Assembly (NCBI GenBank): GCA_026419835.1
Contig: JAOAKQ010000002.1
Span: forward strand, 268,015-332,014
DNA length: 64,000 bases
Origin: Sulfolobales archaeon
GTDB lineage: Archaea > Thermoproteota > Thermoprotei_A > Sulfolobales > NBVN01
Direction of reading: 5' to 3'
Shown: positions 50,795-52,236 of the stretch, piece after piece
Position numbering within the stretch: position 1 is the stretch's first letter
How the letters are laid out: every line of letters begins with the position of its first letter
The notes under the pieces: model-generated
Told to the model about the DNA's origin: nothing
Databases searched by the model: none
What the model saw: the letters and a program-made list of their open reading frames with translations, nothing else
Program-made: the position numbers and the translations under genes

Positions 50795-50843
50795 CGTGAG
50801 GAAGTAGCTTAAAAGAATGCTCTAGAATACTGGTGGGTGCTAG

Positions 50844-51953
50844 GTATTTAGCTCGGGAGAGTTTGAAGTAGATAAAGAGCAGCTTAAGCAGATAGTTAAA
50901 GAGTTGAAGAAGTGGAGTGCGCACGCAACAACGCTTCTATCTCTCTACGTACCCCCGGGTCGACCCGTTGGTGACGTCGTTAACCTACTTAGGCAGGAGC
51001 TCTCGATAACTGAGAACATTAAGTTGAAGAGAACTAAGTCCAAGGTTCAGTTCGCTCTTGAAGCGGCTATCGAGAGACTACTGAAGATACCTAAGATACC
51101 TAGGAACGGTCTCGTCATCTTCGCTGGGGAAGACGATGATACGGGTGAAACAACCGTTCTACTGTTTTCGCCTCCGGAACCCGTGAAGGTCTTCTTCTAT
51201 AGAACGGACAAGTACTTCCACACGGAGTTTCTCGAGAGTATGGTTGAGGAAAGCGACGTCTACGGACTCATAGTTATAGAGAGGGATGAGGCTACACTAG
51301 GTCTTCTAAAAGGTGGAGCTATAGTCGTTCTCGATGAGCTAGAGGCCTACATCCCGGGAAAGCACAGCAAGGGGGGGTGGTCTCAGAGAAGATTCGATAG
51401 AATAATAGAGGAGATGGTTGAGGAGTTCTACAAGAAGGTCGGTGAAAAAGCCAGCAGCTACTTCATACCTCTACTGGAGGTGGGTAAGCTTAAGGGGGTC
51501 GTAGTCGGCGGTCCGGGCTACTCGAAAACGGACTTCGTAAAGGGTAACTACCTAGACTACAGACTTCAGAAAATAGTAGTTGGAAGTCCTCTAGATGTCA
51601 GTTCTCAGGGTGAGCCAGGTCTTAGAGAGTTAGTGGAGAAAGCTCGAGAGTACATTAAGGAAACGAAGTACCATAGAGTTAGAGAAGTTCTGGAGAAGTT
51701 CAAGTACCACCTAGCGAAAGACGACGGGTTAGCGACTTACGGTGAACTCGAAATTGCTAAGAGCCTGGAGCTGGGTGCCGTTGAGACTCTAATTGTAGTA
51801 GAGGACCACCCCAAGCTAGCTGAACTAAAGAACCTGGCTGAACGTGGAGGAGCTAGAGTTGTGGTTGTAGGCGAGGATTTCATGGAGTACGAGTGGTTGA
51901 AGAAGGCCTTCGGAGGTGTAGTAGCTGTACTGAGATACCAAGTAGTTAGCTAG
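50844..51953 (+). CDS. aRF1/eRF1-family protein with GGW in place of GGQ
   Basis: The class I release-factor fold is clear. The N-domain has LLSLYVPPGRP and an NIKS-position NIKLKRTK, the middle domain ends in an active-site loop GKHSKGGWSQRRFDR, and the C-terminal domain holds EVNA-like ribosome contacts. The universal GGQ is replaced by GGW, with a Gln two residues later (GGWSQ). The first usual start is TTG 50904, but an in-frame helix (EFEVDKEQLKQIVKELKKW) precedes it back to a TAG at 50841 without ATG, GTG or TTG. A TATA-like GCTTAAAAG at about 50807 places transcription start near 50840, so I extend to GTA 50844 tentatively. Main release factor or rescue paralogue cannot be decided. Confidence 0.8.
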   Translation, partial: VFSSGEFEVDKEQLKQIVKELKKWSAHATTLLSLYVPPGRPVGDVVNLLRQELSITENIKLKRTKSKVQFALEAAIERLLKIPKIPRNGLVIFAGEDDDTGETTVLLFSPPEPVKVFFYRTDKYFHTEFLESMVEESDVYGLIVIERDEATLGLLKGGAIVVLDELEAYIPGKHSKGGWSQRRFDRIIEEMVEEFYKKVGEKASSYFIPLLEVGKLKGVVVGGPGYSKTDFVKGNYLDYRLQKIVVGSPLDVSSQGEPGLRELVEKAREYIKETKYHRVREVLEKFKYHLAKDDGLATYGELEIAKSLELGAVETLIVVEDHPKLAELKNLAERGGARVVVVGEDFMEYEWLKKAFGGVVAVLRYQVVS

Positions 51954-52236
51954 ACTCTTCACCAGCTCCCTCTTCCTCCTCCATGAGGTCTAGGAGGATC
52001 TCGTAGAACTCCTCCTTCTCCTGCTCGATCTCCTCCTGGCTCCTAGTTTTCCCACCTCCCTCACTTACAATAGATGTCGTTCTAACCTTAGACTCAGCAC
52101 CAGCCTTACCGGATAGTCTGTACTTTTCACCAGTCTTAGATACTTCCTCATAACCACAGCTCGGGCATCTGTAAACGTAGTTATCGTCTTTCTTCTGAGG
52201 AACCATCACAGTTCCACATCGAGCGCAAAACTTCGT
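51946..52236 (-). CDS. Short TFS/RpoM-like zinc-ribbon protein
   Basis: The N-terminal zinc ribbon of transcription factor S or RNA polymerase subunit M: C-A-R-C-G then CPSCGYE. It is followed by a Ser/Gly/acidic tail; the second, catalytic ribbon of TFS is missing. From the first usual start (52209) the protein would lose the first CxxC pair, so translation must start upstream. In that frame KFCARCG is preceded by an ACG at 52236 and then TAG, exactly where related proteins have ATG. AAGGTGAGG is a good ribosome site 6 nt before it, and TATA-like TTATAAAG lies at about 52269-52277. About 96 residues. The ACG may be a genuine start or a base error. Confidence 0.7.
   Translation of the reverse strand, partial: TKFCARCGTVMVPQKKDDNYVYRCPSCGYEEVSKTGEKYRLSGKAGAESKVRTTSIVSEGGGKTRSQEEIEQEKEEFYEILLDLMEEEEGAGEESS

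Follow-up and report, generated by a model that had tools for sequence, protein, structure and literature searches.

In one clade of uncultured hot-spring archaea of the Sulfolobales, the catalytic glutamine of the GGQ motif has been lost from what appears to be the only release factor, and Mtq2, the methyltransferase expected to modify that glutamine, is absent alongside it. The clade includes the source of the window, i.e. the whole analysed stretch of 64,000 nucleotides (NCBI GenBank assembly GCA_026419835.1, contig JAOAKQ010000002.1, forward-strand positions 268,015 to 332,014). Within the window, the plus-strand open frame at 50844..51953 (369 codons plus a stop codon, and lacking a start codon where it begins) encodes an archaeal class-I release factor (aRF1)-type protein whose loop, PGKHSKGGWSQRRFDR, has GGW at the place of GGQ. 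An initial annotation had drawn attention to this single gene; the observation is confirmed and turns out to be broader, as GGW is found in 26 of the 31 genomes of the window's own family (f1). We hold, with moderate confidence, that the GGW protein is functional and is the clade's sole class-I release factor, that tryptophan has replaced its catalytic glutamine, and that Mtq2 has been lost.

The assignment to aRF1 is borne out by a full-length match to TIGR03676 (aRF1_eRF1) at 431 bits, against a cut-off of 234.7, and by eRF1 domains 1, 2 and 3 (PF03463, PF03464 and PF03465, the last at 71.1 bits), all of which exceed their cut-offs. Domain 2 (51261..51659, +; residues 140-272, numbered on the open frame) bears the loop, in which the two glycine codons (51372-51377) and the tryptophan codon TGG (51378-51380) together form GGW (51372..51380, +; residues 177-179), followed directly by Ser180-Gln181 (51381..51386, +). 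The codon-recognition motif is present as NIKL (51015..51026, +; residues 58-61), the form that NIKS takes in this order; N58, I59, K60 and L61 are invariant in 39 aligned aRF1 rows. The best solved relative, the archaeal aRF1 of PDB 3agk, is 50% identical over 359 alignment columns and likewise has NIKL, but its loop reads GGQSQRR, as opposed to GGWSQRR in the window protein. Thus, the protein resembles known aRF1/eRF1 in its three domains, NIKL, GGxSQRR context, single copy and orthology by tree, and departs from them in having GGW for GGQ and in coming from a genome in which no Mtq2 was found. Pelota/Dom34 shares domain ancestry with the window protein and, in Dom34, also lacks the GGQ glutamine; however, the score of the window protein against Pelota TIGR00111 (88.3 bits) is below the cut-off of 177.65, and genome G000 has a separate Pelota-like gene. 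Against the acVLRF1 model NF041024 the score is 34.1 bits, under the cut-off of 125, and the protein retains PF03465, whereas aVLRF1 is without the C-terminal Pelota-type domain; a match to Pfam PF18859 acVLRF1 (50.8 bits, cut-off 27.1) is an overlap among related domains. Judging from these comparisons, the window protein is an aRF1 orthologue but not a standard member, since the GGQ motif of class-I release factors is replaced by GGW in it and throughout its clade (26 of 26). An AlphaFold2 model gives a confident aRF1 fold (mean pLDDT 87.2), although no catalytic geometry was taken from it because pLDDT is only 56 in the block around the loop.

The distribution of GGW was assessed across 214 genomes of the order, 183 of them outside f1. 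Searched for at the DNA level, the pattern of the GGW loop matched 26 of the 214, all of them in f1 and belonging to eight genera, while four f1 genomes (G009, G011, G012 and G019) have GGQ and G010 (76% complete) gave no aRF1. All 63 aRF1s read outside the family, in two sets of 40 and 23, have GGQSQRR; one full-length locus (G089) was not parsed and hence lies outside the 63. In a sample of 398 genomes from the phylum, six match a non-C codon at the glutamine position, of which four are GGW genomes of f1 and two (G329 and G334) are read outside an aRF1 context, but this is no phylum-wide census, because the corresponding GGQ pattern finds only 201 of the 398. In an aRF1 tree of 70 rows, computed with the Q/W residue masked, the 26 GGW rows form one clade (support 100/96) and a single change is needed, so GGW arose once and was then kept. 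TIGR03676 scores are 411-432 bits for the GGW aRF1s and 439 for a GGQ relative, and the length of the loop is the same in both groups. Among the 26 GGW genes, each glycine position uses all four codons and the following serine uses four, yet in the encoded proteins GG, W, S and Q never vary, a pattern from which we read that the loop is under purifying selection. When 19 GGW rows were compared with 20 GGQ rows, column 179 was the sole one to divide them fully, and no compensating change was seen elsewhere in aRF1.

It is hardly credible that GGW is an artefact of sequencing error, contamination, pseudogene formation or a reassigned TGG. The named GGW relatives are, it is true, metagenome-assembled genomes (MAGs), and the window genome comprises 107 contigs and is 84% complete; however, the substitution recurs in 26 genomes from several projects, in frames that are open and with synonymous codons varying around an invariant TGG. 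Because that TGG recurs in 26 of 31 family genomes amid such variation, sequencing error is excluded, and with it the prospect, raised in the initial annotation, that resequencing would give GGQ. Further, TGG also encodes Trp24 and Trp351 of the window gene, which are invariant in all 39 aligned aRF1s, so TGG means tryptophan here. For practical purposes, the artefact reading is refuted.

The GGW protein appears, from the searches made, to be the sole class-I release factor of its clade. Exactly one PF03464 match above 130 bits occurs in 30 of the 31 f1 genomes, the remaining matches being weak and Pelota-like, and the bacterial-type release factor (PF00472) is found in none of the 31. A protein search of the window genome returned aRF1 and Pelota, and the second, GGQ-bearing aRF1 that the initial annotation had proposed to look for was not found in that 84% complete assembly; eleven GGW genomes, however, have a completeness of 90% or more and little contamination. 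More broadly, no other stop-codon release factor was detected in the 31 f1 genomes by PF03464 and PF00472, VLRF1-type proteins not having been searched with a profile of their own. The suggestion that the protein might be a ribosome-rescue paralogue is not supported: no other aRF1 was found in the window genome or in any GGW relative, and the protein is orthologous to the GGQ aRF1s. The companion suggestion, that it binds the ribosome without hydrolysis, is improbable given that these searches gave no further factor to act at stop codons. A version in which the GGW protein recognizes stop codons and docks, while a further, unrecognized factor hydrolyses the peptidyl-tRNA, strikes us as improbable: loss of the catalytic glutamine does usually mark inactive relatives such as Dom34 (PMC6514570), and a hydrolase from a family not yet known would be missed by such searches, but neither an RF-1 domain nor any eRF1-type domain besides those of aRF1 and Pelota was found in the 31 genomes, the two glycines are kept, and the remainder of aRF1 is constrained as in its GGQ relatives.

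The glutamine of GGQ is reported to be methylated by Mtq2/HemK2, with G-Q-x3-R as the preferred context (PMC10804810), and Mtq2 orthologues are reported from all archaeal phyla (PMC5372719). The residue expected as substrate of Mtq2/HemK2-Trm112 is the very one replaced in the GGW aRF1s. TIGR00537, the model for the HemK2/MTQ2 family, exceeds its cut-off in 2 of the 31 f1 genomes, G009 and G011, both of which have GGQ. At E<=1e-12, matches occur in 4 of 31 genomes within the family versus 154 of 183 outside it, and among good-quality genomes in 0 of 11 (all GGW) versus 97 of 107 (Fisher p 3.7e-10, a value uncorrected for descent and resting on one clade). A dedicated profile (A1), built from 17 Mtq2 sequences, was run on the 31 f1 genomes and on 29 genomes of the order previously without a match. 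It scored 244 bits in G009 and 236 bits in G011, whose protein also matches human N6AMT1/HEMK2 in the PDB, and it recovered divergent Mtq2-like matches in families f5, f6 and f7. In the rest of f1, a second methyltransferase apart, its scores did not exceed 41.4 bits in GGW genomes or 45.1 bits in GGQ genomes and came mostly from the S-adenosylmethionine (SAM)-binding part of the profile. Thus, TIGR00537 and profile A1 together detected no Mtq2 in any of the 26 genomes with GGW.

Three candidates were dismissed. The TIGR00537 matches of G014 and G018 were rejected as Mtq2, as they are without YxPxxD[ST]xxL and score 254-257 bits against each other but 41-57 bits against Mtq2; profile A1 gave 106 bits for G014 and 76 for G018. 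G011 gave a further match to A1, at 87 bits, which was set aside because its score suggests that it is probably the same second methyltransferase. This HemK-like protein (L054 in G014, L055 in G018 and possibly G011:C36) has NPPY and lacks the N-terminal stretch of Mtq2.

That the GGW protein is active, and how it acts, we infer; its orthology and the absence of a substitute make activity likely. The catalytic glutamine changed to tryptophan on one branch and the tryptophan was retained through eight genera, in a protein that most probably continues to recognize every stop codon and to bring about hydrolysis of the peptidyl-tRNA. Mutations of both glycines of GGQ are reported to abolish release, as the backbone angles demand glycine, whereas the glutamine side chain serves for packing; the attacking water can be held by the glutamine main-chain NH, the side-chain carbonyl and the 2'-OH of A76 (PMC5799190). 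Archaeal aRF1 is also reported to work on eukaryotic ribosomes (PMC10516650). Both glycines are kept in all 26 GGW genes and would maintain the shape of the loop. The main-chain NH, which is present with tryptophan as with glutamine, may still hold the water, lending backbone support to hydrolysis, and the tryptophan side chain would fill the A-site pocket in which glutamine packs. The conserved Gln181, which completes a GGxSQ like that of VLRF1, may assist. Once the glutamine had gone, Mtq2 would have had no aRF1 substrate and could have been lost.

Several points weigh against this account. In yeast, eRF1 Q182E reportedly could not be propagated stably (PMC12440015); the named GGW records are all MAGs; and the Mtq2 counts are not independent observations, because the loss is in effect one event. 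Two GGQ genomes, G012 (86% complete) and G019 (82%), also gave no Mtq2 match, so loss of the enzyme is not one-to-one with the change from glutamine to tryptophan and may have come first. For G012 and G019 themselves, an incomplete assembly or a second loss may be responsible. Finally, another glutamine, Gln181, lies two residues downstream of Trp179.

It was put forward at the outset that this downstream glutamine may do the work, and a register-shifted catalysis along these lines, with Gln181 replacing the lost residue, is our leading alternative, held with low confidence. The loop would then act as the GGxSQ of VLRF1-type peptidyl hydrolases, and the order's GGQSQ sequence would have pre-adapted it to the loss of the first glutamine. 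GGWSQ does fit the GGxSQ motif reported for aVLRF1 and acVLRF1 (PMC6514570), the window protein reaches 50.8 bits against PF18859, and the second glutamine predates the change, as SQ occurs in 39 of 39 aligned rows. However, all GGQSQ aRF1s of the order satisfy GGxSQ equally, and the invariance of Gln181 in GGQ and GGW proteins alike leaves its conservation silent on any new role; for the same reason it provides no specific compensation. The lengthened loop of VLRF1 (PMC6514570) is not seen in the window protein, the loop of which is as long as those of its GGQ relatives. Because SQ is invariant in both groups, sequence alone does not separate catalysis by Gln181 from backbone-supported release with tryptophan at 179. 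The initial annotation would also have taken itself as refuted if GGW were normal for proven release factors of the group; GGW is indeed the norm of the clade, but its members are predicted release factors.

On the ribosomal side, a comparison of the 23S rRNA gene, both over its peptidyl-transferase segment and over its full length, found no compensating change tracking GGW. The full-length rows comprised 8 GGW, 1 GGQ and 13 outgroup sequences, and 2 of 3,733 columns were fixed in the GGW rows and absent from the other full-length rows, both being shared with the partial row of the GGQ genome G009. Non-archaeal-looking rows, i.e. L161 (G030) and two extra copies from G027, were dropped; such copies in these two genomes (L161, L164 and L167) are probably contamination. 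At one peptidyl-transferase-centre position, which we take to be E. coli 2504, C occurs in L152, L153, L160, L163 and L186 (g1, g4, g7 and f2; GGW and GGQ) and T in the other readable rows.

A second feature of the gene concerns its start. Position 50844, given initially as the beginning of the gene, cannot serve as such: a stop codon in the same frame precedes it, and the first ATG, GTG or TTG is codon 21 (TTG at 50904), inside conserved sequence. Just upstream, GTG CTA GGT ATT TAG C (50837-50852) lies in the frame from which a +1 shift enters aRF1, and translation probably starts at GTG 50837 and gains the aRF1 frame by such a shift. The gene proposed from comparative sequence thus runs over 50837..51953 (+), with the shift at 50846-50851 and a product of 371 residues. 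It would be preceded by a Shine-Dalgarno-like TGGTGG (50831..50836, +; recognized by eye), and in the shift cassette ATT-TAG-C (50846..50852, +) the P-site ATT may re-pair with the overlapping TTT, AGC being read next. The window therefore shows the hallmarks of a prfB-type site, i.e. a stop codon early in the 0 frame that is preceded by NTT and followed by a weak base, with the main frame lying at +1.

The arrangement is widespread. When 94 aRF1 genes of the order were scanned for a start codon, zero to four codons, NTT and a stop, 73 matched at +1, as against one in frame 0 and one at -1. By family, the motif is found in 23/30 genes of f1, 9/9 of f2, 4/4 of f3, 4/5 of f4, 8/8 of f9, 1/3 of f10 and 7/7 of f11 (56/66), and in the remaining families in 0/9 of f5, 0/7 of f7, 1/4 of f6 and 1/8 of f8, the single f6 and f8 matches belonging to genes that have in-frame starts and lying 37-52 bases ahead of the aligned start. 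The shift codons of the 58 genes with a match are ATT TAG (39), CTT TGA (7, all in f11), TTT TAG (4), CTT TAG (4) and GTT TAG (2), while the matches of f6 and f8 account for two further types, one each. The stop is followed by C in 43 genes, by T in 14 and by A in one, and a G-rich stretch is present in 53. Of the 26 genes of the GGW clade, 19 retain the cassette, as expected if the GGW aRF1 still terminates (at UAG). Among the others, G008 and G017 have TAT TAG C, and G015, G026 and G028 of genus g10 have an in-frame GTG start. In L021 (G022) and L031 (G030), also GGW aRF1s, neither an in-frame start nor a +1 cassette was recognized; three congeners have in-frame GTG.

This conservation suggests a prfB-like +1 frameshift in aRF1. 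Like bacterial prfB (RF2) and Mimivirus eRF1, the cassette combines an early in-frame stop, a +1 shift on NUU_U and C after the stop; CTT TGA C of the f11 genes is the bacterial RF2 site, and the Mimivirus site is CUU UAG C (PMC5009743, PMC3521657). Unlike them, it is archaeal, reaches its stop within a few codons of the start and is mostly ATT TAG, and it is predicted from comparison of genes. For archaeal frameshifting, a 2021 review gives one case, a -1 shift (PMC8211752). In the titles and abstract openings of the open-access literature, the subscription literature not being covered, neither a GGW release factor nor aRF1 frameshifting was described; within that open-access search, the prfB-like circuit has not previously been described for archaea.

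Two observations concern the surroundings of aRF1. In the window, a small Cys-rich open reading frame at 51946-52209 (-) is convergent with aRF1 and overlaps its 3' end by eight bases. In L023 and L024, an IF2/aIF5B-like GTPase adjoining aRF1 seems, by eye, to contain a P-loop intein (HGK-CLHPEE...VVHN-TT).

On balance, if narrowly, we judge that this clade terminates all of its protein synthesis without the catalytic glutamine of GGQ and with Mtq2 lost, so that the glutamine side chain would be dispensable, and that a prfB-like +1 frameshift at the gene's own stop codon autoregulates this lineage of aRF1 genes. If true, the clade would be a natural exception to the GGQ-glutamine rule of protein synthesis, which has been thought universal; it would test directly what share of the chemistry of release is owed to the backbone of the loop and to the ribosome as opposed to the glutamine side chain, and it would bear on why GGQ methylation exists. 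The frameshift cassette, if it acts as proposed, would mean that autoregulation of a release factor at its own stop codon arose in archaea besides bacteria and giant viruses.
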